From Neobacillus sp. FSL H8-0543 (GTDB lineage Bacteria > Bacillota > Bacilli > Bacillales > Cytobacillaceae), in the NCBI RefSeq assembly GCF_038592905.1, contig NZ_CP151943.1, forward strand, positions 1,026,001-1,090,000: 64,000 bases of DNA, in the 5' to 3' direction. Position numbers and translations under genes: made by a program. The stretch's first letter is position 1; every line of letters starts with the position of its first letter. The notes below the pieces were generated by a model. The model was not told the origin of the DNA. It saw only the letters and a list, made by a program, of their open reading frames with translations, and did no database searches. Shown piece by piece: positions 11,527-64,000 of this stretch.

Positions 11527-11838
11527 TCATGAGGACTATTTTTTCGATTTTCTCGGGTGAATCGACCTCATGAGCCCTTCATGAGGACTACTTTTCCGAT
11601 TTTCTCGGGTGACTCGACCTCATGAGCCCTTCATGAGTACTACTTTTCCGATTTTCTCGGATGAATCGACCTCATGAACCCTTCATGAGTACTACTTTTC
11701 CGATTTTCTCGGATGAATCGACCTCATCAGCCCTTCATGAGGTCCACTTTTCCGATTTCCCCGAATGAATCGACCTCATCAGCCCTTCATGAGGATCAAT
11801 TTGCTAATTTTTTCTATGTAGCCTGACTTCATAAACCA
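11527..11838. repeat. Tandem array A: 52-bp unit, five full copies plus a decayed sixth
   Basis: TTCATGAG recurs at 11527, 11579, 11631, 11683, 11735 and 11787, exactly 52 bp apart each time. The core of each unit reads ACTTTTCCGATTTTCTCGG followed by GTGAATCGACCTCATGA. At each junction CCTCATGA-GCCCT-TCATGAGG (or near variants) forms an 8-bp hairpin with a 5-nt loop, and CCGA...TCGG inside the linker forms a smaller one. No plausible protein is encoded. The array fills the gap between the convergent rnhC and pheT genes. Nothing else was seen in 11467-11526. Confidence 0.95.
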
Positions 11839-11841
11839 AAA

Positions 11842-11875
11842 AAAACACTTTGGACCCAATTGTCCAAAGTGTTTT
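11842..11875. terminator. Bidirectional terminator of pheT and rnhC side
   Basis: AAACACTTTGGAC / GTCCAAAGTGTTT has a 7-nt loop and A/T tracts on both sides, 10 bp after the pheT stop. Confidence 0.9.
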
Positions 11876-11885
11876 TCTATCTAAC

Positions 11886-14300
11886 TTATCCTCTTAAAAC
11901 AGCCCCAGCCTGTTCCTTCAAGGCTTCTAGTACTTGATTGTGAACCTTTGTTACTTCTTCATCTGTTAAGGTGCGCTCTGGATCAAGATATTTCAATGAG
12001 AATGCAATGGATTTTTTCCCTTCCTCCATACGATCTCCTTCGTATAAGTCAAAAACAGAGACTTCCTTAAGAAGCTTTCCACCAACGCTCTGAATGATAT
12101 CCTTCAATGCTCCGGAAACTGTTTCTTTATCAACAACAAGAGCAATATCTCTTGAAATCGATGGGAAACGAGGAATCGCTTCATATCTAAGTGGTTCAGT
12201 TCCTTCTTCAAGCACTGCTTGCAATGAAAGCTCGAACACATACGTGTCTTTTAAATCAAGTTCTTTTTGCATGGTTGGATGCACCTGACCAATGAACCCA
12301 ATTCGCTTACCGCTCAAGTGAATTTCGGCTGTTCTGCCAGGATGCAAGTGCTCCACCTTTGCCTGCACATATGTTACTTGATCGGCAAAACCTAACTTCG
12401 TAAACATGCCATCTAAAATACCTTTTAACACATAGAAATCTACAGCCTTTTTCTCACCTTGCCATGAATGGTTATGCCATAATCCTGTGATGGCACCTGC
12501 TAAATGTTCTTGTTCTTCTGGTAACACTTCATTACCATTTGCTAAAAATACTGCACCCGTTTCATAAACACCAATGCTGTCACTTTGACGGGCGCTATTG
12601 TATTTTAAAACTTCCAGCAATTGCGGCAGGATGCTTAAGCGGAGAATGCTGCGGTCTTCACTCATCGGCATTGCCAGACGGATGAAATCGCCCTTCTCTA
12701 ATGCAAATTGTGCAGCTTTTTCTTCATTTGTTAATGAATAGGTTACAGCTTGGTAAAGACCTGCACCTTCTAAGTACTGGCGAACAACACGACGTTTTTC
12801 TTGGTATGCCGATAACTTACCAGGTGTTGTTGAACCGATTGGCAGGGTTTTTGGAATGTTGTCGTAGCCATAAATACGCGCAACTTCTTCAATCAAGTCT
12901 TCTTCGATTTTGATGTCACCACGTCGTGTTGGTGCTGTCACAGTGATTACATCCTCCTCAATGCTAGTCTTAAATTGAAGACGATCAAAAATATCCTTTA
13001 CATCCTGAACCGCTAATTCCGTACCGATTACACGATTAATTTTTTCCAAGCTGATTGAGACAACCGCTGGTTCGATGGTAAGTGTATCGACTTCAGCTGT
13101 ACCCTCAAGAACTTCACCATTTGCATACATTGCCATTAGATAAGCTGCGCGCTCACCTGCAACACGTACACGATTAGGATCGACTCCCTTTTCAAAACGG
13201 GCACTTGCTTCACTTCTTAATCCATGGTCTTTAGAGGCAGTTCTCACAGTACCGCCGTTGAAATAGGCAGCTTCTAACAGAACAGTAGTTGTGTCTGAGT
13301 TTACTTCTGAATTAGCACCACCCATTACACCCGCTAACGCAACCGGCTCGGTTCCATTTGTAATCACGAGATGGGAAGACTTTAACGTACGTTCCGCATC
13401 GTCCAATGTGGTGAATTTTTCTCCATCCTGTGCACGGCGGACAAGGATTTCTTTTGACCCTAAGCGATTGTAATCAAATGCATGGAGCGGTTGACCATAT
13501 TCTAATAAAATGTAGTTCGTAATATCAACGACATTATTATGCGGACGAATGCCAGCAGCCATAAGACGTGTTTGCATCCACATCGGTGCAGGCCCGATTT
13601 TTACATTTTTAATCACTTTGGCAGCGTATAGAGGATTATCCTCATTTGCCTCAACTTTGATAGTGATATAATCTGTTGCTTTTTCAGTAGTAGGCTGCAG
13701 GTTGATTTCCGGAAGCTTTACGTCTCTGCCAAGAATGGCAGCCACTTCATAGGCCACACCAAGCATGCTTAAGCAATCTGCACGATTAGGTGTCAAACTT
13801 AATTCTAGAACTTCATCGTCTCTATTTAACAGTTCAAGGGCATTTACGCCGACTTCTGCATCTTGCGGGTAAACAAATATTCCTTCTGAATACTCCTTTG
13901 GAACAATTTTAGCTTCCATACCTAACTCTGTAAGCGAGCAAATCATTCCATTTGACTCTTCCCCACGAAGCTTTGCGCGTTTAATTTTAAAATTGCCTGG
14001 TAGAACGGCACCAACTGTAGCTACGGCAACTTTCTGTCCTTGGGCCACATTAGGCGCACCGCAAATGATTTGAACCGGTGCTTCTTGACCGATATCAACA
14101 AGACATTTGCTTAACTTATCAGCATTTGGATGCTGCTCACGTTCAAGAACATGGCCGACAACCACTCCTTTAATACCTTCGTTAAGGACTTCTACACCCT
14201 CAACTTCTATTCCACTTTTCGTAATTTTTTCTGCTAGTTCAGTTGCAGTTACTCCGGATAAATCTATATAATCCTGGAGCCATTTATATGAAACAAACAT
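11886..14300 (-). CDS. pheT: Phenylalanyl-tRNA synthetase beta subunit
   Basis: The 804-residue beta chain of the alpha2-beta2 enzyme has the same length as in B. subtilis. Domains in order are the EMAP-like tRNA-binding fold (about 40-155), B1/B5 helical modules, the B3/4 editing domain ([12 protein letters not shown] region), B5, a catalytic-like core, and the C-terminal FDX-ACB anticodon-binding domain (from about 710, [15 protein letters not shown]). It lies 15 bp after pheS and is under the same T-box leader. Confidence 0.97.
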
Positions 14301-14315
14301 GATATGCTCCTCCTC

Positions 14316-15353
14316 TTATTCGTGTTTAGAAAATTGTTTTAAGAAACGTACATCATTTGTATAGAAATGACGGATATCATCGACACCGTATTTCAACATC
14401 GCAATCCGCTCTGGTCCCATTCCGAATGCAAAACCGGTATATTTTTTCGAGTCATATCCAGCCATTTCAAGAACATTTGGATGTACCATACCTGCTCCAA
14501 GAATTTCAATCCAGCCTGTCTTTTTACAAACGCTGCAGCCTTTTCCACCGCAAACTTTACAAGAAATATCCATTTCGACAGAAGGCTCTGTGAATGGGAA
14601 AAAGCTTGGGCGTAAACGGATTTCCCGGTCTTCACCAAACATCTTCTTGGCAAACAAATCTAATGTCCCTTTAAGGTCACTCATACGAATGTTTTCGCCA
14701 ACAACAAGGCCTTCAATTTGCATGAACTGGTGAGAGTGTGTTGCATCATCATTATCACGTCGATACACTTTACCTGGGCAAATGATCTTGATCGGCCCTT
14801 TGCCTTGGTTTTTCTCCATTGTCCGAGCCTGTACTGGCGAGGTATGAGTACGAAGAAGGATATCTTCAGTAATATAGAAGGAGTCCTGCATATCTCTTGC
14901 CGGATGTCCCTTCGGTAAATTCAGCGCTTCAAAGTTATAGTAATCCTGTTCTACTTCAGGACCTTCGGCAACTTGATAGCCCATGCCAATAAATAAATCT
15001 TCAATTTCCTCAATGATCCTTGTGAGGGGATGATGGTTGCCCACTTTTACCGGTCGTCCCGGGAGAGTTACATCAATCGATTCAGATGCTAATTTTTCTA
15101 AAACAACGGCTTCTTCAAGCTCACTTTGTTTTGTTTCGATTACCATGGCAATGGATTCTCGAACTTCATTTGCCAGAGCTCCCATGATCGGGCGCTCTTC
15201 TGCTGAAAGCTTGCCCATACCGCGCAGCACTTCGGTGATTGGACCCTTTTTGCCTAAATAAGCAACGCGAATGTCATTCAATTCTTTTAAGCTGGAAGAC
15301 TGGTCAACTTTTTGAAGAGCTTCCTGCTGCAATTCTTTTAATCTTTCTTGCAT
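14316..15353 (-). CDS. pheS: Phenylalanyl-tRNA synthetase alpha subunit
   Basis: This class II catalytic subunit (345 residues) charges tRNA-Phe. The N-terminal coiled coil (1-85) is followed by the class II core, with motif 2 around [10 protein letters not shown] and [19 protein letters not shown], and motif 3 [17 protein letters not shown] near the C-terminus. A Cys cluster ([17 protein letters not shown]) is present as usual in Bacillus PheS. The ATG at 15353 has AGGAGG upstream. Expression is expected to respond to uncharged tRNA-Phe through the T-box at 15608-15890. Confidence 0.97.
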
Positions 15354-15404
15354 TACATTTCCTCCTTAAATTCAAATCATTATAAAAATCAATCGAATGA
15401 AACT

Positions 15405-15553
15405 AAAAGGCGGAAGCGCCCGTTTAGCGACGTATGGACTGGAGCGCTCCGCATGAGATAAAGGAAACACGAAGAGCGTTAGCGATTCGATGTTGACTTA
15501 TCGTAAGGAGGAGAGCGAAGTCCACTAGTCGCTGGGCGCTGGAGCTGGATTCA
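15405..15553. repeat. Bacillaceae intergenic repeat, copy 2 (about 150 bp)
   Basis: It begins AAAAGGCGGAAGCGCCC and ends GGGCGCTGGAGCTGGA. The GCGCC/GGCGC ends are imperfectly inverted. It lies between pheS and its T-box, inside the transcribed leader region. It is related to the copy at 10303-10455 and to end fragments at 20447, 34323 and 41366. Confidence 0.8.
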
Positions 15554-15607
15554 GATAACTATTAAGTAATCCATACTAAATTTTTTTTAGTTTCCTAAAC
15601 CACAAAA

Positions 15608-15890
15608 AAACCCCATCCCTGGAAAGGGACGAGGTTTATAGTCGCGGTACCACCCTTGTAAACACTATGTTAAAACACAAATGTTCGCTTCATTCGGATA
15701 ACGGCATATGCCGATGCATCTTTACACACGAAAAAGGTCATCTTTTTTCTTTGTGGTCCCGATGCCAACTCAGGAGGTGAACTTCTCATGTCTGGATCCA
15801 TAAAAGTGCTTTCAGTCGCGGCACTTTCTCCCTAAATGGTATTTGACAGGATACTTTTCTCCATCATCGTTTTTGATTTTATTAATATTG
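15608..15890 (-). ncRNA. T-box leader of pheST
   Basis: The minus strand has the T-box core AGGGTGGTACCGCG (15641-15656 region) followed by a GC-rich terminator (AAACCTCGTCCC / GGGATGGGGTTT, 15608-15637) and a T run. The competing antiterminator pairs with the T-box. Uncharged tRNA-Phe is expected to relieve termination. A TTC triplet at 15779-15781 in the 5' stem region is a candidate specifier codon for Phe. An unusual feature is that a 150-bp repeat sits between the terminator and pheS. Confidence 0.92.
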
Positions 15891-15896
15891 TTAGTA

Positions 15897-15925
15897 ATTA
15901 TATAATAATTTTCTTGTGGTTTCAA
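15897..15925 (-). promoter_or_regulatory. Sigma-A promoter of the pheST T-box leader
   Basis: TTGAAA (15920-15925) and TATAAT (15897-15902) are separated by 17 bp on the minus strand, just downstream of the ysgA stop. Confidence 0.8.
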
Positions 15926-15937
15926 ATTAAGTATCGC

Positions 15938-16687
15938 CTATTTTTTAAAATAATATAATAGGATCCCGGTTGCAACTGCAACATTTAATGATTCACTTTT
16001 CCCATAAATCGGAATATAAAGGTTTCTAGTGGTCTTGGCAAGGATATCCTTACTAACGCCATTTCCCTCGTTCCCCACGATTAATCCAAACGCATCCGAA
16101 GGCTGTGTTTCTGTATAGATTATGCCATTTTCAAGCGCTGTTCCATAGACAGGAATGTTTTTATCCTTTAGTTTTTCCACCCAATCATTTAGGTCCCCTC
16201 TAATGATTGGAAGGTGAAAATGACTCCCCTGTGCAGATCTGAGTACTTTTGAGTTGAAAATATCGACACTGCCGCGGCCGACAATGACAGCATCAATTCC
16301 GGCAGCATCAGCTGTCCGAATCATCGTTCCTAAGTTTCCTGGATCCTGTACGGCATCAAGGAGCAGATAGGTTTTTGCATCCGTTACTTCGCTTTCTAGT
16401 TGACGGCACACAGCATATATCCCCTGAGGTGTTTCTGTATCTGACAATGCGTTGGCTATTTCTTCGGTAACAATCGTTACCGAAGAAACCCCGGTATCCC
16501 AGCGGGGCGGCAAACCAACTTGCTCTGAGACGATAATTTCTACAATTTGCTCACCCTGTCTTATTGCTTCTTCAACTAAATGAAAACCCTCAACCAAAAA
16601 CGTACCCGACCGATCGCGTTCTTTTTTTGTTAAAAGTTTTTTCCATTGCTTAACCTGCGGATTATTTATTGACTGAATATGCTTCAA
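15938..16687 (-). CDS. ysgA: TrmH/SpoU-family RNA 2'-O-methyltransferase
   Basis: This 249-residue SPOUT methyltransferase has an N-terminal substrate-binding domain with KKERDRSGTFLVEG, and the knotted catalytic domain has motif 1 LDAVQDPGNLGTMIRTADA, motif 2 LIVGNEGNGVS and motif 3 SLNVAVATGILLYY. The exact rRNA or tRNA target is not evident. The TTG start at 16687 follows AAAGGAG by 7 bp. It lies between sspI (divergent) and pheS, the same order as in B. subtilis. Confidence 0.9.
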   Translation of the reverse strand: MKHIQSINNPQVKQWKKLLTKKERDRSGTFLVEGFHLVEEAIRQGEQIVEIIVSEQVGLPPRWDTGVSSVTIVTEEIANALSDTETPQGIYAVCRQLESEVTDAKTYLLLDAVQDPGNLGTMIRTADAAGIDAVIVGRGSVDIFNSKVLRSAQGSHFHLPIIRGDLNDWVEKLKDKNIPVYGTALENGIIYTETQPSDAFGLIVGNEGNGVSKDILAKTTRNLYIPIYGKSESLNVAVATGILLYYFKK

Positions 16688-16799
16688 ATTTTTTCTCCTT
16701 TAATTGCTATGTATTTTCTAATTATAGCCCAATTTTAATACATAATAAAACTTAAAATAGAAATGATAATAAGGAAAAGCTGACAAAAAGGAGTGTGTG

Positions 16800-17009
16800 A
16801 TGATGAACTTGAATTTGCGCAATGCTGTCATTCACAATGTTTCAGGCAATACACAGGAACAATTAGAAGATACAATTGTTGATGCCATTCAAAATGGTGA
16901 GGAAAAAATGCTCCCTGGTCTTGGTGTTTTATTTGAGGTTATTTGGAAAAACTCATCAGAGCAAGAGAAAAAGGAAATGCTTGAAGCTCTTGAAAATGGA
17001 CTAAAGTAA
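16800..17009 (+). CDS. sspI: Small acid-soluble spore protein I
   Basis: This protein of about 69 residues matches the SspI family throughout: [20 protein letters not shown], then [20 protein letters not shown] and FEVIW. SspI is a minor spore-core protein, sigma-G dependent in B. subtilis. Two adjacent ATG codons at 16800 and 16803 both sit well with GGAG at about 16790, and the conserved N-terminus (M-x-LNLR) fits the second. CATAATA upstream resembles a sigma-G -10, but the matching -35 is weak. Confidence 0.95.
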
Positions 17010-17022
17010 AGAACCCGCTAGC

Positions 17023-17049
17023 GCTGCTGACTAACCAGCAGCTTTTTTT
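17023..17049 (+). terminator. Intrinsic terminator of sspI
   Basis: GCTGCTG-ACTAAC-CAGCAGC is followed by TTTTTTT, 14 bp after the sspI stop. Confidence 0.9.
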
Positions 17050-17055
17050 CATTGG

Positions 17056-17252
17056 TCTGTTGATTGGAGCTCCAGTCACTTCGCTTTCCGCGGGCAGTCC
17101 GGGAGCCTCCTCGTCGCTTCGCTCCTGCGGGGTCTCCCGTGACTTGCTCTTCCCGCAGGACATTGAATATGCTTCCTTGAATATGCACCGCACGAAGGAA
17201 ATGCGGTAGCATTTTCGAGGAGTTCTACGTGCCTTCCGCTCCAATCAACAGA
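17056..17252. mobile_element. MITE-like element with 15-bp terminal inverted repeats
   Basis: The ends TCTGTTGATTGGAGC (17056-17070) and GCTCCAATCAACAGA (17238-17252) are perfect inverted repeats around a GC-rich interior (TTCGCTTTCCGCGGGCAG, TCGTCGCTTCGCTCCTGCGG). The 197-bp unit has no coding capacity. I recognise this type as a dispersed Bacillaceae intergenic element, but its mobilising enzyme is unknown to me. It fills the sspI to ysdC gap. A very short relic is at 40204-40225. Confidence 0.8.
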
Positions 17253-17294
17253 ATATACTTAATAAACAATGTCCTTTAACATATTTTCATTAAA

Positions 17295-17328
17295 AAACCT
17301 CGGCAAGTGATTGCACACGCCGAGGTTT
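17295..17328. terminator. Terminator of the M42 aminopeptidase gene
   Basis: AAACCTCGGC / GCCGAGGTTT is flanked by A and T tracts, just after the minus-strand stop at 17334. It could also work on the plus strand. Confidence 0.9.
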
Positions 17329-17333
17329 TTGCC

Positions 17334-18419
17334 TTATTCAAATGTTATTTTATCAACGGTTTCACGGTCCAAGCGCTTGATGACCTCGACGATTAATTTT
17401 ACTGCATTTTCATAATCATCACGGTGAAGCATTGCCGCGTGTGAATGAATATAGCGAGTTGCAATGGTAATAGCCAAGGAAGGAACACCATCATGCGCCA
17501 AATGCATAGGACCCGCGTCTGTGCCGCCGCCAGGGATCACATCGAATTGATAAGGAATACCCAATTCATCTGCAAGGTTAGTGATATAATCACGTAAGCC
17601 TTTATGCGCCACAAGCGTTGCATCATAGAGAATGATTTGTGGACCTTTCCCCATTTTACTCATCGCTTCTTTTTCAGAAATACCAGGAGTATCACCAGCG
17701 ATACCTACATCGACTGCAAAACCGATATCCGGATTAATTTTACTGGCTGAGGTTTGAGCACCGCGAGAGCCAATTTCCTCTTGGATTGTTCCCACCCCGT
17801 AAACCTCGTTCGGATGATCGGCACCCTTTAATTGTTTCATAACATCAATAGCAATCGCGCAGCCTATCCTGTTATCCCATGCTTTAGCCAACAGCATTTT
17901 CTCATTGTTCATAACAGTGAACTCAAAATATGGTACAGCCATATCACCAGGGAGGACGCCCCACTCCATTGCTTCCTCACGGCTTGATGCGCCAATATCA
18001 ATAAACATATCTTTAATTTCTACTGGTTTCTTACGGGCCTCAGCCGATAGGATGTGTGGCGGTTTAGAACCGATAACCCCAATTAGATCACCTTTTTTCG
18101 TTACCACTGTTACTCGTTGGGCAAGCAAAACCTGTGACCACCAGCCGCCAACGGGCTGAAAACGGAGGAAGCCCTTTTCATCAATTTGAGTAATCATAAA
18201 GCCCACTTCATCCAGGTGACCGGCAATCATAATTCTTGGTCCGCCTTCTTTACCTGTCTTCTTAGCAATTAAACTGCCAAGTCCATCTGTTGTTACTTCA
18301 TCCGCATAGGGTGCTATGTATTTTGTCATGACCTCTCGTACTTCTCGTTCGTTGCCGGGAATCCCTTTGGCATCGGTTAAATCCTTTAACATCGTTAACG
18401 TTTCATCTAATTTCGCCAT
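17334..18419 (-). CDS. ysdC: M42-family glutamyl/leucyl aminopeptidase
   Basis: This 361-residue dinuclear-metal peptidase shows metal ligands and catalytic residues in [10 protein letters not shown] (His, Asp), [13 protein letters not shown] (bridging Asp), [12 protein letters not shown] (catalytic Glu and ligand Glu), [12 protein letters not shown] and the C-terminal [14 protein letters not shown]. Family members form large tetrahedral particles that trim peptides in the cytoplasm. It corresponds to B. subtilis ysdC by family and neighbourhood (near ysdA and ysdB). A 67-bp gap separates it from the dUTPase gene upstream. Confidence 0.92.
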
Positions 18420-30815: not shown

Positions 30816-31721
30816 ATGATAATTAGACCTCGCAAGGAATCAGAAGAATTATTAATTTTAAGAATTTTAAACACAAGAAGGTGTTTAGGTGAAGATGACA
30901 AGAGACACTACTTGGTATGTGAGAAAGGTTTTGAAGGGGAAGAGAAGTTTGACTTACTTTTAGAAAAACTTCAAAATGAAAATTTGACTTTAAACGCTTT
31001 ATTATTAGAATTTAATAAATCACATTTCCAAATTGACACCCTGATTATTTTTCAAAGGACGATTTATCTTATTGATGTCAAAAATTATGAGGGTGAATAC
31101 TTTTTTAAGACTGATGGTTTCTATTACGCTAATGGAAAACCTATGAAGGACAGTCTAGCGCAGTTAAAAAGGTGTGAACTATTGCTCAGCCAATTAATTC
31201 AAAAATATGGATTTAACTACCCAATTGAATCTTATCTGATTTTCATTAACCCCGAATTTACTCTTTATCATGCGCCCGAAAATCCACAAATTATTTTACC
31301 AACACAGATTAACCGCTTTATGAACAAATTAAATATGATTCCATCAAAGTTAACTGATAGACATTTAAAACTTGCTAAACTTTTAGATTCATTACACCAG
31401 GACAAAAATCCTTTTGCAGCGAATCTAGCTTACGATTTTGATTATCTCCAAAAATGGTTTAATTGTGTTTCATGTAACTCATTTAAACTTATTGCTGGCA
31501 GGACCAAGTTAATTTGCGACACATGTGGCTGTGAGGAAGAAATTGAATTAGCTATTTTGCGGTGTGTGGAGGAAATAAAGCTATTGTTTCCTGATAAAAG
31601 AATTACAACAAGTTGCGTCTTTGACTGGTGCGGGGGTATAGTGTCAGAAAAGACGATTAGAAGGGTCCTGAATAGTAGTTTTGAAATGATTAATAAAAAA
31701 AGGTTTGCACACTATAAATAA
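30816..31721 (+). CDS. NERD-domain protein with C-terminal zinc ribbon
   Basis: This 301-residue protein has a NERD (nuclease-related) domain at roughly 40-165, with the D...D-x-K core in FQIDTLIIFQRTIYLIDVKN followed by YEGEYFF and a conserved Gln/Leu helix (SLAQLKRCELLLSQLI). A zinc-ribbon CVSC / CDTCGC follows (about 222-245), then a helical tail with another Cys pair. The domain fold predicts a restriction-endonuclease-like nuclease. Its target is unknown. It is very AT-rich and stands alone between gapB and coaE, with AGAAGGGAAG as ribosome site. Confidence 0.82.
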   Translation: MIIRPRKESEELLILRILNTRRCLGEDDKRHYLVCEKGFEGEEKFDLLLEKLQNENLTLNALLLEFNKSHFQIDTLIIFQRTIYLIDVKNYEGEYFFKTDGFYYANGKPMKDSLAQLKRCELLLSQLIQKYGFNYPIESYLIFINPEFTLYHAPENPQIILPTQINRFMNKLNMIPSKLTDRHLKLAKLLDSLHQDKNPFAANLAYDFDYLQKWFNCVSCNSFKLIAGRTKLICDTCGCEEEIELAILRCVEEIKLLFPDKRITTSCVFDWCGGIVSEKTIRRVLNSSFEMINKKRFAHYK

Positions 31722-31762
31722 TCCCATTTATCACGCACCTGTTTAGTCAATGGTTGGGCTCT

Positions 31763-32068
31763 ATTTGACCGTAGAGTTCCTTTTTTCTTTTTTGGGGCAA
31801 ATGGGACACCCCCATTTGACCGTAAATTCCCTTTTTTCTTTTTTGAGGCAAATGGGACACTCCCATTTGACCGTAAATTCCCTTTTTTCTTTTTTGGGGC
31901 AAATGGGACACCTCCATTTGACCGTAAATTCCCTTTTTTCTTTTTTGGGGCAAATGGGACACCTCCATTTGACCGTAAATTCCCTTTTTTCTTTTTTGGG
32001 GTAAATGGGACACCTCCATTTGACCGTAATATTCCTTTTTTCTTTTTTGGGGTAAATGGGACCAGTCC
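31763..32068. repeat. Tandem array B: 51-bp unit, six copies
   Basis: ATTTGACCGTA recurs at 31763, 31814, 31865, 31916, 31967 and 32018, exactly 51 bp apart. Each unit has CCATTTGACCGTAAATTCCC, a run TTTTTTCTTTTTTGGGG, then CAAATGGGACACC. CAAATGGG-ACACC-CCCATTTG and variants form 7-8 bp hairpins at the junctions. All three minus-strand frames stay open because 51 is a multiple of 3 and the unit lacks stops, but none has a ribosome site. It lies between the convergent NERD gene and coaE. Confidence 0.95.
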
Positions 32069-32127: not shown

Positions 32128-32727
32128 TTAATTAATTCCCCAACTTGCTAATAATTCGTTGAGTTGTCTTTTTGTTTCCTCGATTGACCCATTATTATCA
32201 ATAACGGCATCAGCTAACGCTACTTTTTCGGAGAGGGGCATTTGCGAGTTCACTCTTGCCACTGCATCAGCCATCGATAATTCATTTCTATCCATTAATC
32301 GCTGCAGTTGAACCTGTTTATCTACATAAACAAGGATTGTTTTTTCCACCATTGAGGTTAATTTACTTTCAAAGAGCAAAGGAATATCGAGAATAACAAC
32401 CTTTTCTTCGTTCTTAATGGCTGTATCAATTTTTTTGAACATCCTCGCCCTAACGTCTGGATGTACAATTCCATTCAATATCTGTCTTTTATCGGCATTA
32501 TGGAAAATGATCGAACCTAATTTTTGCCTGTCAATGCCCTCGTCAGCTAATAAAATTTCATCGCCAAATTCAGCCACAATCTTTTGATAAGCAGGTTCTC
32601 CTTTTTCGACTGCAAGGCGTGCTTCTACATCTGCATCAACCACAGTAATATCCATTTCCTTTAACATATTTGAAACTGTACTTTTTCCACTGGCAATACC
32701 GCCTGTTAATCCAATTACTAATGCCAT
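32128..32727 (-). CDS. coaE: Dephospho-CoA kinase
   Basis: This P-loop kinase (199 residues) catalyses the last step of CoA synthesis. Walker [10 protein letters not shown] is at residues 9-17. The DxD-like VVDADVEA, the CoA-domain HPDVR and [10 protein letters not shown] are in place. It follows ytaF by 20 bp in the polA-mutM-ytaF-coaE order of B. subtilis. Confidence 0.96.
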
Positions 32728-57269: not shown

Positions 57270-57608
57270 ATGAAAGAAATAGGCTTTTTCCCTTCTTTTA
57301 TTGAAAGCTATTTTATTGCATTAGGGGTTATCCTGGGCGGAGCGTTAATTGGGGGGATTGCAGCCTTCCTAACTGGACAACCCCCGCTAACGGCTGTTAC
57401 CCGATTGTCGTCTTCTTTAAGAATTTGGGCAATTGTTGCAGCAATAGGAGGAACCTTTGATGCAGTATACAGTTTTGAAAGAGGGCTATTTAACGCTGAG
57501 ACCAAGGATGTCTTCAAACAAATTTTATTAATTCTTTCCGCCCTTGGAGGCGCACAGACTGGCGCCCTGTTAATAAGCTGGTTAACCCAGGAGCAAATAA
57601 CATCATGA
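57270..57608 (+). CDS. ytrH: Sporulation protein YtrH
   Basis: This 112-residue protein has three hydrophobic segments (about 10-33, 44-64 and 88-105) and the family-typical FIESYFIALGVILGGALIGG and SSLRIWAIVAAIGGTFDAVY. In B. subtilis YtrH and YtrI are mother-cell proteins needed for efficient sporulation. It overlaps ytrI by 4 bp and is under a sigma-E-like promoter. Confidence 0.92.
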   Translation: MKEIGFFPSFIESYFIALGVILGGALIGGIAAFLTGQPPLTAVTRLSSSLRIWAIVAAIGGTFDAVYSFERGLFNAETKDVFKQILLILSALGGAQTGALLISWLTQEQITS

Positions 57609-58108
57609 GGATACCCCCTCTATATCGTAGTCCTTCGTGGCAGCGCTTTTTTGCCGGCACAGCTGTTGGCGGTGTAATTAGTTGGTGTATCTTTATCTAT
57701 ATTTACGGAGTATGGCTGGAAGAGCACACGGCATTAATTAAGTCACAAACACAGAATATCGTTGATTTAAGAGAAGAAAAAAAAATTTGGCAGGAAGAAT
57801 ATAAAGAAATGAATAAACGGAGTATAGAACAACTGACTGTTCAGAAAATTAATGTAAAGATTGCAAATGCTGAAAAATATCGCCTAGATTCTTTAAGTGT
57901 TCTGGAAACAGAAGACTCAGTTAAAGACGACATTAGCATGATGTTAGCCAAGGATATGGACACCGTCTACAAAAGTAAGGAACTTCTAAAAAAAATCATT
58001 CACAATAAAACAGTAAAGATTAACGATAAGAGGTACAAGCTTCAAGTGAAAGAAATAGTTATCTACACAACGTTGACGATTCAATTAGAAATAAGTTTTG
58101 ATAAATAA
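57605..58108 (+). CDS. ytrI: Sporulation membrane protein YtrI
   Basis: This 167-residue protein has one N-terminal membrane anchor (about 15-37) followed by a coiled coil (QTQNIVDLREEKKIWQEEYK) and a small soluble domain with alternating beta segments. Position and features match YtrI, the partner of YtrH in sporulation. The start codon overlaps the ytrH stop (ATGA), so translation is coupled. A bidirectional terminator follows. Confidence 0.88.
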   Translation: MRIPPLYRSPSWQRFFAGTAVGGVISWCIFIYIYGVWLEEHTALIKSQTQNIVDLREEKKIWQEEYKEMNKRSIEQLTVQKINVKIANAEKYRLDSLSVLETEDSVKDDISMMLAKDMDTVYKSKELLKKIIHNKTVKINDKRYKLQVKEIVIYTTLTIQLEISFDK

Positions 58109-58109
58109 A

Positions 58110-58140
58110 AATCGGCCTCACCGTGGGGCCGATTCCTTTT
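58110..58140. terminator. Bidirectional terminator between ytrI and nrnA
   Basis: AATCGGCC / GGCCGATT with a 9-nt loop has A and T tracts at the two sides. Confidence 0.88.
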
Positions 58141-59082
58141 TTATGCGTAGTTCTTACATACTTCGCTTAGTTCCTTTAATACATTCTCCACTTCGTCCCA
58201 TGAATAAATAGATGCTCCTGAGGCAAGCGGATGGCCTCCACCATTGAACTTTTTGGCAATTCCATTAATTACCGGACCTTTTGAACGTAAACGAACCCTT
58301 ATTTGGTCTTCTTCCTCTATAAAGAAGACCCAGGCCTTGATTCCCTTTACATTGCCTAACGTTCCAACAAGCAGAGAGGCATCAGGCGCATTTGCACCAA
58401 ATTCCTCCAAGAGTTCTTTTGTAAGCATAACGGAAGCCACACCGCTGCTCTGTAACTCAAAGTTTTGCAGAATATAACCGTTTAACTTGATGATATTTGG
58501 TTCAAGATCGTACATACCATCATAAAGTTCGGTCCGTGAAAATTTGTAATGGATTAATTCTCCAGCATAAGCAAAGGTTTTGTCGGTTGTACTCGGAAAT
58601 AGGAATCTGCCTGTATCACCAACAATCCCACCATAAAGGAGCCTAGCCGCCTCATCATTTATCTTAAGGCCCTGATCTTTACCAAATAAATAAAATTCAT
58701 AAATCATCTCACTGACCGAACTTGCCGTCGTATCCACCCAAAGTAAATCACCATATGGATCCTCATTAGGATGGTGATCAATTTTTATCAGTTTATTCCC
58801 TAATGAATACCGGGTATCACAGATTCTAGCTGCATTGGCTGTATCACAAATAATCACTAAAGCCCCTTTATAAACCTCATCATCAATTACATCAAGCCTA
58901 CGCATAAAATGGAGCGATTTTTCTTCCCTTCCTACCGCATATACCTTTTTTTCAGGATAGGAGGCTTTTAATATCTCCACTAACCCGCACTGAGAGCCAT
59001 ATGCATCTGGGTCCGGACGAACGTGACGATGGACAATAATTGTTTCATATTGTTGAATGGCTGCTAAAATTTCTGCTTTCAA
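58141..59082 (-). CDS. nrnA: Oligoribonuclease / pAp phosphatase NrnA
   Basis: This DHH-family phosphoesterase (313 residues) degrades nano-RNA and 3',5'-pAp. Metal ligands lie in HRHVRPDPDAYGSQ, ICDTANAARI and the DHHPNED triad. The C-terminal DHHA1 domain ends with NGGGHPLASGA. I set the start at TTG 59082, 5 bp after AAGGTGA, which yields exactly the B. subtilis length. The frame continues to 59124 without a ribosome site. Confidence 0.94.
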   Translation of the reverse strand: MKAEILAAIQQYETIIVHRHVRPDPDAYGSQCGLVEILKASYPEKKVYAVGREEKSLHFMRRLDVIDDEVYKGALVIICDTANAARICDTRYSLGNKLIKIDHHPNEDPYGDLLWVDTTASSVSEMIYEFYLFGKDQGLKINDEAARLLYGGIVGDTGRFLFPSTTDKTFAYAGELIHYKFSRTELYDGMYDLEPNIIKLNGYILQNFELQSSGVASVMLTKELLEEFGANAPDASLLVGTLGNVKGIKAWVFFIEEEDQIRVRLRSKGPVINGIAKKFNGGGHPLASGASIYSWDEVENVLKELSEVCKNYA

Positions 59083-59181
59083 TAAAATCACCTTATCTAT
59101 TGTTTTTTTAACCAATTGTAGCATTTTGCTATAAATAACGTTACAATAATAAAAGATTTTTGATATTTGGAGGAAGAAAAA

Positions 59182-59490
59182 ATGTCTTTTCTTGTTGTTC
59201 TGATTGTAATATTTTTTGCCTTCTATTTATTTTATAAAACAAAATACTTCAGAAGTAATCGGCCTGTCGAAAAGAAATGGCTTTCGGCAAAATCGAACAT
59301 CGCACTTGGTCTATTTGTTGCCTTCTTTGGTATTAATCATTTATTTTTCATATCCCAAACAACTGTAACAGTCATCGTGGCTGTCATATTTATTGTTTAT
59401 GGAGCGGTATTTGCATGGATAGGGTTTAAAAAATATAAACATTACCTGCCCTTCGCTATTACCGAAGCTGAAAGCATTAAATCTCATTAA
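59182..59490 (+). CDS. ytpI: YtpI-like membrane protein
   Basis: This 102-residue protein has three hydrophobic helices (about 3-20, 41-60 and 63-84) and a short charged loop KTKYFRSNRPVEKKWLSAKS. Family and position (between nrnA and ytoI) match YtpI, of unknown function. ATG 59182 is preceded by GGAGG. Five extra codons upstream would place the start inside that ribosome site. Confidence 0.85.
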   Translation: MSFLVVLIVIFFAFYLFYKTKYFRSNRPVEKKWLSAKSNIALGLFVAFFGINHLFFISQTTVTVIVAVIFIVYGAVFAWIGFKKYKHYLPFAITEAESIKSH

Positions 59491-59528
59491 AAATTCATTG
59501 CTTTGTTTTTCCATAAATCAAAGAGGAG

Positions 59529-59552
59529 AGCCGCTCAAAAATTTGAGCGGCT
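59529..59552. terminator. Bidirectional terminator between ytpI and ytoI
   Basis: AGCCGCTCAAA / TTTGAGCGGCT, an 11-bp stem, is followed by TTTTTG on the plus strand. Confidence 0.9.
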
Positions 59553-59562
59553 TTTTGTTTCG

Positions 59563-60882
59563 TTAATTCCTGTCAATTAACTGACACATCATCATTGCTT
59601 TACCTACAAGAATACCTTCTTTGAAAACTTCCACATCAACCTTGCCAAATTTCCGCCCAACTTCTAAAACCTTGGGAAATACTTCTAAAATACTCTCCAT
59701 TTGTACCGGCTTCATAAAGTAGATTGTCATGTTTTCTACAACTAAGTCACCTTTTTTATAGCTTCTTAATATACGGTTTGCCGCCTCAGTAACGATGGTT
59801 GTAAATACACCGTATGAAATGGTTCCAAGATGGTTTGTCATTTGTGGGCTTACTTCAATGGTGTAGACTTCCTCCCCTTTTTCTTTCTCACGCCTTAAGA
59901 TCAGCTGATTGGTGACAATATCGTCAATCGTTTCTCCTACTTGAGGCTGGCGCTGGTTCATTTGCAGTGCTTTTAATACATCCTGTCTGCTAATAATTCC
60001 TTCTAATCGATTCGAGTCATCGGCAACAGGAAGAACCTCTATTCCTTCCCAGACCATCATATGTGCAGTCGAAGCAACACTGGTTTTCCCGCTAACGCTC
60101 ATTGGATTCTTCGTCATGATTTTGTCAATCGACAGGTCAAAATTCTGACCCATGATATCCTTCGCTGTCACTATACCTTGAATCTTCATGTTTTGATCAA
60201 CAACAGGATAACGGCTATGCGTCGTTTCTTTATTAAAATCATGCCACTTTGAAACCTTATCAGTAGTTCTTAGAAAAAAAGTATCTTCTAGCGTGGTTAA
60301 TATATCTTCAACAAGAATGATTTCCTTTTTTATTAATTGGTCATAGATGGCACGGTTAATCATGGTTGCAACCGTAAAAGTATCATAGCTAGTTGAAATG
60401 ATTGGCATTTCGAGCTTATCTGCCAGCTTTTTCACGGTATCCTCAGTATCAAACCCTCCGGTCACTAAGACCGCAGCACCTGCCTTTAATGCAAGTTCAT
60501 GTGCCTGGTCACGATTCCCGACGATAAGCAGGTTATTAGGACCTGTGTATCGCATCATTGCCTCTAATTTCATGGCACCAATGACAAATTTATTAAGTGT
60601 TTTATGCAGGCCCGCTTTTCCGCCTAACACCTGTCCATCCACGATATTTACTACTTCAGCAAAGGTCAGTTTCTCAATATTTTCTTTTTTCTTCCGTTCA
60701 ATTCTAATCGTTCCGACTCGTTCAATTGTGCTAACATAGCCCTTATTTTCCGCTTCCTTGATGGCTCTATATGCCGTACCCTCACTTACTGACATCGCCT
60801 TAGCGATTTGACGCACTGATATTTTCTCTCCAACAGGGAGCCTATCAATGTATTGCAATATTTGTTCATGCTTTGTTGCCAA
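59563..60882 (-). CDS. ytoI: HTH-DRTGG-CBS-hotdog regulatory protein YtoI
   Basis: This is a four-part 439-residue protein. An N-terminal winged HTH (VRQIAKAMSVSEGTAYRAIK) is followed by a DRTGG domain (about 75-180), two CBS domains (about 195-310, SRYPVVDQNMKIQGIVTAKD and MSVSGKTSVASTAHMMVWEG) and a C-terminal hotdog thioesterase-like domain (about 320-435). The layout matches YtoI. It probably senses a nucleotide or acyl-CoA, but its targets are unknown. It is encoded alone, and the protein has the same HTH-CBS logic as CcpN without being that protein. Confidence 0.88.
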   Translation of the reverse strand: MATKHEQILQYIDRLPVGEKISVRQIAKAMSVSEGTAYRAIKEAENKGYVSTIERVGTIRIERKKKENIEKLTFAEVVNIVDGQVLGGKAGLHKTLNKFVIGAMKLEAMMRYTGPNNLLIVGNRDQAHELALKAGAAVLVTGGFDTEDTVKKLADKLEMPIISTSYDTFTVATMINRAIYDQLIKKEIILVEDILTTLEDTFFLRTTDKVSKWHDFNKETTHSRYPVVDQNMKIQGIVTAKDIMGQNFDLSIDKIMTKNPMSVSGKTSVASTAHMMVWEGIEVLPVADDSNRLEGIISRQDVLKALQMNQRQPQVGETIDDIVTNQLILRREKEKGEEVYTIEVSPQMTNHLGTISYGVFTTIVTEAANRILRSYKKGDLVVENMTIYFMKPVQMESILEVFPKVLEVGRKFGKVDVEVFKEGILVGKAMMMCQLIDRN

Positions 60883-61010
60883 GAACTTTCACCCTTTATA
60901 TTCATATTCCAATACCGCGAAAGTCACATCTCTTTTACGATTCTGATAATCTTATTATAAAGTGAAAAAAGCCTTGATTCAATGAGGTCTGTGATTTATT
61001 TGCATGAACA

Positions 61011-61247
61011 TCAGTAAAAAGAACGTGACTTTTTCTTAATTCTTACTGACTGTTGCTTATTCAATGCACGCTTTGGACTATAAAGCATACCAGTTAAGTT
61101 ACCCGCTATGACAATAAGTGCAAAACTAAGCCATACAAGTGAAAATGTCCCCTGTAGCCCTTCAGAAAATACGGATAACTTCGGAACAGCGAAGTAAAGC
61201 ATCAATCCACAGAGTAACAAGCAAAGCAAATATCTGTTCTTTTTCAT
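61011..61247 (-). CDS. Small two-helix membrane protein
   Basis: I do not recognise a family. The 78 residues have a signal-anchor-like helix (about 5-22, RYLLCLLLCGLMLYFAV), a short loop and a second helix (about 36-56, LVWLSFALIVIAGNLTGMLY), then a very basic tail (SPKRALNKQQSVRIKKKSRS). It has a good AGGAGG site. It lies between ytoI and ytkL, and its length and position suggest a real but uncharacterised Bacillaceae gene. Confidence 0.7.
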   Translation of the reverse strand: MKKNRYLLCLLLCGLMLYFAVPKLSVFSEGLQGTFSLVWLSFALIVIAGNLTGMLYSPKRALNKQQSVRIKKKSRSFY

Positions 61248-61326
61248 TTTCCTTTTCCTCCTTAATAAGCTTGTTTTATCTTTATGCTTAAAACAGGAAA
61301 AAAAGTAGATGAAAATGAATATAGGA

Positions 61327-62010
61327 TTACAAATCTATTGATTCTCCAGGCAGCAGCACTTTACCATTTTTATTATCAAGCATTTCGATAAATTGGTTTG
61401 GATCTTGTTTTATCGGCGGAAATGTATTGAAATGGATTGGTACAATCGTTTTTGCCCCTAACAGCTTAGCAGCATATGCTGCATCCTCTGGTCCCATCGT
61501 AAAATTATCACCGATAGGCAGGAACGCCAGATCAATAGGGTGTCGTTCACCAATCAGTTTCATATCGGAAAATAGTGCGGTGTCACCTGCATGGTAGATT
61601 GTTTTTCCTTCATTCGTAAACAATATCCCTGCTGGCATACCGCAATAAATAATTTCTTCTTTATCATCCTTAATAAAACTGGAACCATGAAAGGCCTGTG
61701 TCAGTTTCACCTTACCAAAATCAAATTGATAGGCTCCACCTATATGCATAGCATGGGTTTTTACGCCTTGCCAACTTAAATAGGTAGCAAGCTCATGATT
61801 CGCAATTACAAGGGCATCATGTTTTTTTGCTAACTCGACAGTATCACCAACATGATCACCATGACCGTGGGTTAGGATAATCACATCTGGTTTTACCTCT
61901 TCCGCCTTAAGGTCTGTTAATTGGTTACCCCTAATAAATGGATCAATAAAGATTATTTTTCCATTACTATTTATTTGTACAACCGAATGTCCATGATAAG
62001 AGACTCTCAT
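61327..62010 (-). CDS. ytkL: UPF0173 metallo-beta-lactamase-fold hydrolase
   Basis: This 227-residue MBL-fold protein has the dinuclear zinc motif [10 protein letters not shown], a further His in MHIGGAYQF, Asp in [11 protein letters not shown] and a C-terminal His ([10 protein letters not shown]). Substrate unknown. YtkL is the B. subtilis counterpart by family and position. Its start diverges from the M24 peptidase gene. The ATG at 62010 has GAGAG upstream. Confidence 0.9.
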
Positions 62011-62208
62011 CCTACACTCTCCCTTCTTATGTATTAATTATTATACTTCCATACAAATTAAGTAAATCCTTCTTCAACATATCCAAAAATTGGTGAACTT
62101 AGCACAAAATACGATGGTAAATATAGATAAAATGGCTGTAATGTTTACAATTTGCCTTCTAATTGTTACTCTCAAACTAGATTTTTAATTTTTGAGGAGG
62201 ATAAAAAA

Positions 62209-63306
62209 ATGAATCAACGATTACAAAAGCTACAGACATGGATGAAGGAAAATGAAATTGATGTAACCTTTGTCACTTCTTCTGAAAACGTATTTTATTT
62301 AAGCGGATATTATACAAACCCACATGAACGATTACTTGCTCTAGCCGTATTCCAAGAAATGGAGCCGTTCCTTGTTTGTCCAGGAATGGAGGTCCATGAT
62401 GCGAAGCGAACTGGCTGGGAGCATGAAATTATTGGCTATAGCGATATCGTTAATCCGTGGGAATTAATACATAAGTCCATAAACAAACGATTAAACAGCA
62501 TTCAAAAAGTAGCGATTGAAAAGGAACATATGAATGTTGAACGCTACGAGCAGCTGTCACTATTATTCCCTAAGGCAGCCTTTGTTTCAGCTGAAGAAAA
62601 ATTAAGAAGATTACGGATGATTAAAGATGCAAAGGAATTAAAGATTATGGAAGAAGCCTGCTCCCTTGCAGATTATGCCATTGAAGTGGGCTGCAGTGAA
62701 ATTCGTGAAGGTAAAACGGAGTTAGAAGTTCTATCGGCTATCGAATTTGCCTTAAAGAAAAAAGGCGTAAAAGAAATGTCCTTTTCAACCATGGTGCTAA
62801 CGGGGGCAAATGCTGCTTCGCCACATGGAAACCCAGGGGAAACAAAAATTCAAAAGGGTGATTTAGTTCTATTCGATTTGGGTGTAGTTGTCGATAGGTA
62901 CTGTTCTGATATCACAAGAACGGTCGCATATGGTGATATTAATGATAAGCAAAAGGAAATCTATGATACCGTATTAAAAGCTCAATTAGCGGCAGTTGAG
63001 GCAAGTAAACCTGGTGCTACTGCTGCAGAGGTGGACTTAACCGCAAGGAGAATTATTGCTGATGCAGGCTATGGGGAGTATTTTCCGCATCGTCTTGGAC
63101 ATGGACTTGGAATTAGCGTACACGAATATCCTTCAATGACCGAAACCAATCCTTTAATAATTGAAGAAGGAATGGTCTATACGATTGAACCTGGAATCTA
63201 CGTCCCTAGTGTAGCAGGTGTCCGCATTGAGGATGATCTATATATTACTGCTGATGGTCCAAAAGTATTAACCAATTTCCCGAAAGAGCTGCAAATTATT
63301 AGATAA
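62209..63306 (+). CDS. M24-family Xaa-Pro dipeptidase/aminopeptidase
   Basis: This protein of about 365 residues has an N-terminal creatinase-like domain (MNQRLQKLQTWMKEN, then SSENVFYLSGYYTNPHERLL) and a C-terminal pita-bread metallopeptidase. Its dinuclear-metal ligands are in FDLGVVVDRYCSDITRTVA (two Asp), RLGHGLGISVHEYP (His), TIEPGIYVP (Glu) and GVRIEDDLYI (Glu). It cleaves Xaa-Pro dipeptides by family. I set the start at ATG 62209 after GAGGAGG. An earlier frame start at 62152 is unsupported. Confidence 0.92.
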   Translation: MNQRLQKLQTWMKENEIDVTFVTSSENVFYLSGYYTNPHERLLALAVFQEMEPFLVCPGMEVHDAKRTGWEHEIIGYSDIVNPWELIHKSINKRLNSIQKVAIEKEHMNVERYEQLSLLFPKAAFVSAEEKLRRLRMIKDAKELKIMEEACSLADYAIEVGCSEIREGKTELEVLSAIEFALKKKGVKEMSFSTMVLTGANAASPHGNPGETKIQKGDLVLFDLGVVVDRYCSDITRTVAYGDINDKQKEIYDTVLKAQLAAVEASKPGATAAEVDLTARRIIADAGYGEYFPHRLGHGLGISVHEYPSMTETNPLIIEEGMVYTIEPGIYVPSVAGVRIEDDLYITADGPKVLTNFPKELQIIR

Positions 63307-63323
63307 GGTGGATTTTTTTACTA

Positions 63324-63352
63324 TTGAACTAATGAAGTAATTGGAGTAATAT
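63324..63352 (+). promoter_or_regulatory. Sigma-A promoter of the RNA unit at 63.36 kb
   Basis: TTGAAC (63324-63329) and TAATAT (63347-63352) are exactly 17 bp apart, just after the peptidase stop. Confidence 0.7.
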
Positions 63353-63358
63353 ACAACT

Positions 63359-63600
63359 ACAGGCTGCGTTGTACGTATTGTTAATTAAGTTTTAACCTTT
63401 AAGCTGTAATAGGGAGTTTTATATTCGGAGTCAAAATGACAAGCCTCTGTCTATATGACATGGGGGACAGGCAGGAGTCTTCGCGCGAACACCCACTTTG
63501 AGGAGTGGTGGTTTAAAACTTTCTTATGTGTAATACGGCAAAGGCGGCTCTACTATTTATTATTCCTAACCAGCTTCCTTTTGGAGCTGGTTTTATTTTG
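63359..63600 (+). ncRNA. Candidate structured noncoding RNA (about 240 nt)
   Basis: From a good promoter to an intrinsic terminator there is no plausible frame but clear paired structure: GTATT (63375-63379) with AATAC (63532-63536), GTTTTAACC (63389-63397) with GGTTTAAAAC (63510-63519), CTGTC / GACAG, and a CCACT-TTGAGG-AGTGG hairpin at 63493-63508. The long closed rod with an unpaired middle recalls 6S RNA, but I cannot confirm a family. Confidence 0.5.
63568..63600 (+). terminator. Terminator of the candidate noncoding RNA
   Basis: AACCAGCT / AGCTGGTT with a 7-9 nt loop is followed by TTATTTT. Confidence 0.88.
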
Positions 63601-63614
63601 GTTCAAATAAAGAA

Positions 63615-64000
63615 TTAAAGACATTTGGGCTGATTTCATTGGTGGTTTTGTCCTTAAGACAGCTCTTTAAAGACATATCACCGGCTTCCTTGTTGAGTTT
63701 TGTCCTTAAGACAGCTCATTAAAGACATTTCACTGCCTTCCTTGTTGAGTTTTGTCTTTAAGACAGCTCATTAAAGACATTTCACTGCCTTCCTTGTTGA
63801 GTTTTGTCCTTAAGACAGCTCATTAAAGACATATCACCGGCTTCCTTGTTGAGTTTTGTCCTTAAGACAGCTCTTTAAAGACATATCACCGGCTTCCTTG
63901 TTGAGTTTTGTCCTTAGACAGCTCTTTAAAGACATATCACCGGCTTCCTTGTTGAGTTTTGTCCTTAAGACAGCTCATTAAAGACATATCACCGGCTTCC
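63615..64000. repeat. Tandem array C: 52-bp unit, at least seven copies, cut by window end
   Basis: TTAAAGACA recurs at 63615, 63667, 63719, 63771, 63823, 63875, 63926 and 63978. The spacing is 52 bp except one of 51, where CTTAAGACA has lost an A. The linker holds TATCACCGGCTTCCTTGTTG and AGTTT. TGTCCTTAA (or TGTCTTTAA) and TTAAAGACA form a 9-bp hairpin, with a 9-nt loop, at each junction. The first unit is diverged. The array continues past 64000. Confidence 0.95.

Follow-up and report, generated by a model that had tools for sequence, protein, structure and literature searches.

Tandem repeats with a constant length of 52 nt and without sequence conservation were described in Bacillus by Subirana and Messeguer (Int J Mol Sci 2021, PMC8161180), and B. 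mesonae (NZ_KV440949.1, Neobacillus mesonae) was among those rich in them. A minimum of four repeats was set for their search, and short characteristic sequences were noted whose reverse was often present within the same repeat. A second article reports from RNA-seq that the 52-nt repeats of B. coagulans are transcribed (PMC8625621). In this study, we analyzed a window of 64,000 nt from Neobacillus sp. FSL H8-0543 (NZ_CP151943.1, positions 1,026,001 to 1,090,000), whose three arrays, A, B, and C, are almost certainly members of the published class. They contain 5.2, 6.0, and 8.6 copies, respectively, above the four-repeat minimum, and share with that class a period of 51–53, several families per genome, a non-coding location and partial conservation between strains. 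The initial annotation of this DNA had proposed an undescribed class of element, a suggestion that this publication contradicts. Its statement of no conservation describes the class and is not a condition of membership, and arrays A–C remain members. While the article claims no conservation between families, we found a shared plan and shared palindrome ends, also in part of its own consensus repeats, and some of these (e.g., TGTCCTTCAT...) carry a palindrome of the A–C type. Its text, as available, contains none of the terms palindrom, hairpin, convergent and orientation. What is new here is the 27+25 plan, the covariation, the recurring ends, the direction relative to replication, the enrichment between convergent genes and a covariance model.

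CRISPR arrays consist of repeats separated by unique spacers. The 52-bp arrays resemble them in that a 27-bp palindromic part alternates with a 25-bp part, but here the 25-bp linker is itself repeated (mean divergence of 8.5%) and there are dozens of loci per genome. SRS/KOPS and Chi are chromosome motifs with a direction set by replication, a feature shared by the 52-bp arrays, which differ in being long and structured. SRS was absent from the arrays and Chi was not enriched in them (present in 4 of 55 arrays on one strand and in 5 on the other), nor was any of the DnaA box, parS core, Noc site or CcpA-like site. REP, BIME, and REPIN elements with their RAYT transposases are likewise extragenic palindromes of several families with a conserved tag at the palindrome foot; unlike them, the 52-bp arrays run head-to-tail instead of alternating, keep a fixed period and include almost no single copies.

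The tandem arrays with a period of 51–52 bp claimed in the initial annotation were recovered by TRF, which gave 52, 51, and 52 bp for A, B, and C, besides four rows with periods of 12–21 in the whole window. Array A (11526–11795 of the window, plus strand in the orientation of our covariance model R1, 5.2 copies) has as its tail a degenerate final unit reaching 11822. Its unit, phased on the palindrome, consists of CGACCTCATG-agccctt-CATGAGGACT followed by a 25-bp pyrimidine-rich linker. R1 matched it on the plus strand at 11563–11614, 11615–11666, and 11667–11718 (E<0.001) and more weakly at 11719–11770 (E 1.1) and 11771–11822 (E 6.8). On its left lies rnhC (ribonuclease HIII; 10522–11466, plus strand; NCBIfam TIGR00716, 332 bits vs. 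a cut-off of 161), which is transcribed against the inferred replication fork, and on its right the convergent pheT (11886–14300, minus strand; NCBIfam TIGR00472). Array B (31759–32062, plus strand in R1 orientation, 51 bp × 6.0 by TRF) has, in the same phasing, the palindrome GGGCAAATGG-gacacct-CCATTTGACC followed by a 24-bp T-rich linker, with plus-strand R1 matches at 31795–31846, 31897–31946, and 31948–31999 (E 0.03–0.12). It separates a called ORF (30816–31721, plus strand) without NCBIfam match at E≤1e-5 from the convergent dephospho-CoA kinase gene (32128–32727, minus strand; NCBIfam TIGR00152). Array C (63645–64000, plus strand in R1 orientation, 52 bp × 6.9 within the window by TRF) passes the end of the window and reaches genome position 1090091, with a total of 8.6 copies. 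Its unit, phased likewise, is TGTCCTTAAG-acagctc-TTTAAAGACA plus a 25-bp linker, and seven R1 matches, all on the plus strand, span 63649–63998. Directly upstream lies the gene of 6S RNA (63358–63554, plus strand; Rfam RF00013, 60.4 bits vs. a cut-off of 46.4), and the gene order is an M24-type peptidase gene (plus), 6S RNA, array C and an ORF on the minus strand from 1090190. The convergent context initially assigned to A and B was thus correct, and that of C, described as downstream of a plus-strand gene, is convergent too, its second gene lying beyond the window.

The predicted hairpin per unit was also present, as CCTCATGA-5-TCATGAGG in A, CAAATGG-7-CCATTTG in B and TGTCCTTAA-9-TTAAAGACA with one mismatch in C (p=0.01, 0.02, and 0.07, respectively, vs. 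shuffles of each unit). The mutual dissimilarity of the three arrays did not hold once the units were phased on their palindromes: B and C carry the recurring ends described below, A carries them partially (CGAC...GACT), and a single covariance model covers all three, with best scores of 33.1, 25.3, and 36.0 bits for A, B, and C, respectively.

The genome scan proposed in the initial annotation, performed on a 24% sample of the genome, revealed a sharp period of 52. Along 1.264 Mb, self-matching stretches numbered 22 for a lag of 52 and 8 for a lag of 51. Every other lag between 15 and 102 gave at most five, with a floor of two that came from two masked N-runs. Among 82 arrays, a set gathered with periods of 50–54 or multiples, the period was 52 in 73, 51 in 7, and 53 in 2. 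They form 45 unit clusters, 27 of which include a representative from the own genome; 4 of the 82 arrays were excluded before clustering due to badly placed centers, and the AT-rich array 1329594 (1.9 copies) was left out of the final array counts. Some of the counted arrays other than A–C have 2–4 copies. The 52-bp repeat is almost absent as a lone copy.

Most families follow a common plan, in which a 27-bp palindrome (10-7-10) is followed by a 25-bp pyrimidine-rich linker. The palindrome ends recur, mostly as GGTC, GGGC or TGTC at one side and GACC or GACA at the other, in 54 of the 82 arrays, while 50 shuffles gave a mean of 0.58 and a maximum of 2. Base pairing is 0.79 at 13 positions from the center and falls to 0.27 one position further out, and the inner arms vary in sequence but retain complementarity. 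In the alignment of 37 distinct units, which leaves out the row of array 1234220 beside a masked stretch, doubly changed cells numbered 116 vs. 41 when shuffled. Of these cells, 86% were paired, compared with 36–47% after sliding by 1–3 columns, a percentage biased upward given that unit centers were chosen to maximize pairing; the shuffled-unit runs, the palindrome ends and the divergence within arrays are fairer controls. No excess was found in the number of pairs with a double change (9 vs. 8.6 shuffled) or in further pair types (28 vs. 25.0, with 55 of 500 shuffles equally high). It must be noted that the shuffles preserve base composition only and that seven cluster representatives, with lengths of 51 or 53, are not part of alignment A2. 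Within arrays, the arms diverge by 3.6 and 2.5% and the linker by a mean of 8.5%, the arms being the less divergent in 45 of 54 arrays (p=3e-8). Taken singly, 48 of the 82 units had a best hairpin above shuffles at p≤0.05. Of 27 repeats published for other species, 12 fit the plan with a score of at least 8 of 10 (shuffles: mean 0.1, maximum 2) and 15 scored below 8. The recurring ends, the covariation and the lower divergence of arms than of linkers agree with the initial suggestion of selection for form, in the sense that the form is constrained.

With respect to placement, none of the 22 sample arrays was intragenic according to our own gene caller, used without annotation and excluding ORFs with more than 30% of their length inside an array. 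In the 24% sample, the enrichment between convergent genes anticipated in the initial annotation was observed: 11 of the 22 arrays occupied convergent gaps compared with 112 of 1038 array-free gaps (10.8%; p=5e-6), and it was also found after weighting by gap length (p=7e-4). When the flanks of arrays, not their units, were scored, intrinsic-terminator-like sites (dG≤-7) were present in 15 of 28 on the side of the lagging gene and in 17 of 28 on that of the leading gene. Given this near equality, some arrays sit beyond units already terminated. The same figures lend no support to the bidirectional transcription stop initially suggested, and the replacement of the terminator of the head-on gene by the array was rejected for want of asymmetry.

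The arrays have a direction relative to replication. Their pyrimidine-rich strand runs mostly against the fork, in 48 of 55 own-genome arrays with seven exceptions (p=1.3e-8); read mostly from linker composition, this direction could in part be a skew effect. Three units had been turned by hand to agree with the orientation of their own family, which made one an exception and two consistent; without turning the count would be 47 of 55. The rule held in 27 of 28 arrays within convergent gaps and in 12 of 17 along genes co-directional with the fork, and where both flanking genes were head-on the direction followed the fork and not the gene in 5 of 5. With loci merged and counted by hand among the matches listed, the model strand followed the fork in 31 of 32 loci of genome G141, which belongs to another family, in 32 of 37 of G000 and in 13 of 14 of G012, whose locus 2638134 is near the expected terminus. 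The fork was deduced from dnaA and GC skew, the terminus being placed at the contig ends, and this assignment is supported by SRS, whose frequency in the sample is about tenfold higher on the leading strand than on the other. Against a skew effect as the source of the direction, AT skew on the leading strand was 0.010 in the intergenic background vs. 0.171 in arrays; GC skew was similar in both (0.097 and 0.105). Hairpin stability showed no strand preference relative to the fork (33 of 55, p=0.18), and strand-specific stability was rejected as the cause of the direction.

Arrays also come and go among close relatives. One locus (L141) holds an entire array in a gap that is array-free in the window and in the six relatives whose gap was read, which argues against an essential role. 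In a class-wide sample, 5 of 299 genomes gave a match at E≤5e-4, one of them from outside the order (G350, two separate hits). A further array, D (L080:5237-5943), had no match in phages or plasmids, and one of its palindrome patterns was found zero times in viral contigs.

We favor, with a probability of about 0.4, a structural repeat acting at the DNA level, whose maintenance or amplification would depend on a process linked to the replication fork. Palindromes spaced by about five helical turns would be recognized as a structure, whether hairpin, cruciform or paired half-sites, by a putative reader that would move with the fork or be loaded by it. Such an agent would fix both the 52-bp ruler and the direction of the arrays, and might either build them or put them to use in the nucleoid, in supercoiling or in handling the fork where convergent genes end; host use and pure self-amplification are rated not far apart. 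Somewhat more tentatively, the 52-bp satellites of Bacillaceae may constitute one ancient superfamily of structured DNA, a direction-bearing palindromic signal on a five-turn ruler, read as structure and not as sequence by a fork-coupled machine at convergent gene ends.

Possible, if rather doubtful, is a selfish satellite without host function, in which hairpins at the fork drive copying in 52-bp steps, the surviving orientation is kept, and arrays gather where they do least harm. The turnover at L141, the near-exclusive occurrence as arrays and the fork-following direction fit such an element, as do the convergent gaps, which are likely the least constrained; on its own it leaves unaccounted for a ruler of 51–53 over 45 unit clusters and the recurring palindrome ends. 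If coupled to arm-to-arm correction it predicts that paired double changes are common inside arrays, and only 2 of 9 double changes were paired. Such correction was rejected, given these nine double changes against 178 single ones, with 3.5 doubles expected by chance.

An element acting as RNA is unlikely. A transcribed chain of 10-bp hairpins could serve as a head-on terminator (CU-rich, Rho-like), in 3′-end protection or as an RNA sponge; the stems covary, the pyrimidine-rich strand is the sequence carried by RNAs transcribed against the fork, and an RNA role may apply given the transcription in B. coagulans (PMC8625621), a topic that Subirana and Messeguer (PMC8161180) also discuss. Against it, folding gave no strand-specific advantage (33/55), terminator-like sites were nearly equal at both array sides (15 and 17 of 28), and no Rfam family was found on arrays A–C at the gathering threshold.

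Still less probable is a REP-like element, a mobile palindrome that a Y1 (RAYT-type) transposase would spread by acting on lagging-strand single-stranded DNA. The palindromes are extragenic and replication-oriented, with recurring end tetranucleotides, and, of 40 genomes comprising the own one and those of relatives, 34 had Y1_Tnp matches, but the sole Y1 gene of the own genome (L330) had, in the 5 kb around it, neither a 52-bp array nor a 10-7-10 palindrome of at least nine pairs, and so was not flanked by cognate repeats as in REP/RAYT systems. Moreover, one relative (G020) combined 11 array-like matches with zero Y1 matches, and another (G032) had five Y1 matches and zero 52-bp arrays in the 0.2 Mb sampled. 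Neither were dispersed single or paired copies found, lone ones being almost absent: R1 at E≤0.1 gave one match off the known arrays in 1.264 Mb (L069:6443-6494), although it recovers 20 of the 22 sample arrays and diverged single copies could escape it. Finally, chance independent tandem duplications with a coincidental period have a negligible probability, being refuted by the period spike, the recurring ends, the covariation and the orientation.

What had been puzzling in the published repeats is that so many different sequences keep to exactly 52 bases. The 27+25 plan and the direction relative to replication make the question of function testable, in terms of what sees the palindrome and what the inversion of an array does, and R1 detects these repeats independently of their period. 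If a fork-coupled reader exists, it would represent a new layer of chromosome organization in a large bacterial order, and the superfamily reading, if true, would mean a previously undescribed type of chromosome-organizing code.

TRF placed array A at 11526-11795 (period 52, 5.2 copies), array B at 31759-32062 (period 51, 6.0 copies) and array C at 63645-64000 (period 52, 6.9 copies), the last lying partly inside the window, which covers 1026001-1090000 of a single 5.296 Mb contig, and running past its end to genome position 1090091. Array A is flanked by rnhC and pheT, array B by an unassigned ORF and the dephospho-CoA kinase gene, and array C by a plus-strand peptidase gene plus 6S RNA and by a minus-strand ORF; therefore, all three lie in convergent gaps, as the initial annotation had recognized for A and B. 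The 6S RNA gene is located at 63358-63554, directly upstream of array C, and the window also carries two T-box leaders and one L20 leader. The nearest named records at the rnhC locus were from Neobacillus, the best being a Neobacillus MAG with 90% RnhC identity.

The proposal that such arrays form an undescribed class did not hold, since the 52-bp class is already published (Subirana and Messeguer, 2021; PMC8161180). In the accessible part of that article, repeats of 51-53 nt outnumber every other class of tandem repeat in Bacillus (1886 of 4029); their sequences vary and are not conserved, and their function is unknown according to the authors. These repeats contain short characteristic sequences whose reverse often occurs within the unit itself. 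Nowhere in that text do the terms palindrom, hairpin, convergent or orientation appear.

Sampling of the genome covered the window and 60 evenly spaced stretches, together 1.264 Mb or 24% of its length. Self-matching stretches numbered 22 at lag 52, 8 at lag 51 and at most 5 at other lags of 15-102, over a floor of 2 due to two masked stretches, while TRF with overlaps merged gave 18 arrays at period 52, 2 at 51 and at most 4 at any other single period; the narrow period first noticed in A, B and C is thus confirmed in this sample. The masked N runs (L064, ~5.5-10.5 kb; L080, ~10-15 kb) were inferred from self-matches at every lag. Longer-unit repeats unrelated to the 52-bp class were located at L073:17235-17594 (180 bp), L087:4269-4770 (171 bp) and L089:13814-14105 (59/119 bp). 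Within arrays, the distance to the next unit was 52 in 371 of 402 cases. In G012, of the same genus, 0.4 Mb contained seven arrays at exactly 52 and one at 104; G028, of another family, had three of period 52 in a biased sample of mostly consecutive stretches, some at known matches, and 0.2 Mb each of G029 and G032 had no 52-bp array.

Eleven of the 22 arrays in the unbiased sample were convergent, nine co-directional, two divergent and none intragenic, the setting of three at stretch ends being settled using other loci. Convergent gaps represent 112 of 1038 array-free gaps (p=5e-6) or, weighted by length, 18% (p=7e-4), and the enrichment for which the initial annotation had proposed a genome scan is present in this sample. 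Convergent gaps also hold 28 arrays of the whole set of 55, which is biased because its members were retrieved through their resemblance to A, B, C and array D (L080:5237-5943).

To define the common plan, each of 82 array consensus units was aligned to its best 10-7-10 palindrome (arms 10, loop 7); 55 units came from the source genome and the remainder from G012, G028 and named loci. Pairing lay at 0.63-0.94 for positions 4-13 counted from the centre and at 0.27 for position 14, and the mean score was 8.13/10 vs. 5.70 in shuffles (maximum 5.89, 50 runs); considered singly, 48 of the 82 units had a best hairpin that outscored shuffled versions of the unit (p<=0.05). The outer ends [GT]G[GT][CA]...[GT][AC]C[AC] were found in 54 of the 82 (shuffles: mean 0.58, maximum 2), as in array B (GGGCAAATGG-gacacct-CCATTTGACC), array C (TGTCCTTAAG-acagctc-TTTAAAGACA) and a Mesobacillus family (GGGCACCAAG-agacctt-ATTGGTGACC); array A (CGACCTCATG-agccctt-CATGAGGACT) has the geometry without the full end pattern. 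The sample's largest array (L066:15521-16885, genome 1423521-1424885, 26 units) has a palindrome, reading GGTAACCAA...TGCCC on one strand, similar to that of the Mesobacillus rnhC-pheT family. Among 37 distinct units, whose rows are families akin to one another and hence not independent events, doubly changed cells numbered 116 vs. 41 shuffled and 86% vs. 54% of cells paired, a signal lost on sliding columns by one to three; coarser measures gave no excess (pairs with any double change, 9 vs. 8.6; further pair types, 28 vs. 25.0). Divergence from the consensus in 54 arrays (456 units) was 3.6 and 2.5% in the arms and 8.5% in both loop and linker, arms being below linker in 45 arrays (p=3e-8) and below loop in 39.

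As an independent set, we scored the 27 consensus repeats of other species printed in the accessible part of PMC8161180. Their mean was 7.0 vs. 5.10 shuffled (maximum 5.63 of 300); 12 scored at least 8 (shuffled mean 0.11, maximum 2) and seven had the recurring ends (0.20, maximum 2). The 15 below 8 indicate that part of the class, as printed there, is diverged or different. R1, a covariance model of the 52-bp units, matched 53-bp Mesobacillus arrays absent from the model at E 0.005-0.07. It recovered 20 of 22 sample arrays at E<=0.1 (1234220 and 3264035 were missed), a figure that is no blind sensitivity test because many were training units, with one match outside known arrays (L069:6443). 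Of 199 genomes sampled within the order, 42 had matches at E<=1e-3, representing 25 of 97 genera; in several of them (e.g., G088 and G141) there were runs at exact 52-base steps. At E<=5e-4, matches occurred in 5 of 299 genomes of a class-level draw, one of them outside the order.

Fork direction was taken from GC skew, which changes sign near 2.5 Mb, and from dnaA (2487080). On this basis, 48 of the 55 arrays had their pyrimidine-rich strand running opposite to the fork (p=1.3e-8): 27/28 convergent, 17/22 co-directional and 4/5 divergent. Where both flanking genes were head-on to the fork, array direction followed the fork, not the gene, in 5/5; where they ran with it, the rule held in 12/17. 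By model strand, counted by hand among the matches listed, loci following the fork were 32/37 in G000, 31/32 in G141 (another family, dnaA at 745), 13/14 in G012 and 3/3 in G138. All 23 R1 matches at named rnhC-pheT gaps (8 loci) had one orientation. A second published class, of 20-21 nt with core TGTAGTAAG, also looks oriented in the source genome (forward/reverse 0/10 at L065:7364-7773, fork minus; 12/0 at L082:14079-14456 and 29/0 at L089:9033-10224, fork plus).

Taken together, the fixed ruler, the recurring ends, the changing but complementary interior, the low arm variation and the fork-set direction point to a DNA-level structure that would be handled by a fork-coupled process with a putative acting agent. 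We assign this reading, with host use or mixed use of the arrays, a probability of about 0.42. That they are purely selfish satellites amplifying themselves is somewhat less probable. An RNA-level element is less supported; transcription of 52-nt repeats is reported for B. coagulans in the accessible part of PMC8625621. Spread of the palindromes by RAYT is also less supported, given that the single Y1 transposase (RAYT-like) match (G000:C1:1660043-1660372) had no matching palindromes in the 5 kb around it.

The orthologous rnhC-pheT gap was compared across 80 named loci, a few of which lie on contigs that stop short of pheT. Ten carried 51-53 bp arrays there (L141, L142, L144-L147, L151, L152, L191, and L192), whose unit families differed; several other Neobacillus gaps had a 21-bp periodicity or nothing, and this periodicity sits in the same convergent gap of other species. 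L141, from a Neobacillus MAG, has a B-like array of six units at 3948-4271. Comparison of gap sequences shows that the window and six relatives lack this array there, and it was therefore probably gained. L141:3948-4271 thus offers a clean site for the study of array gain.
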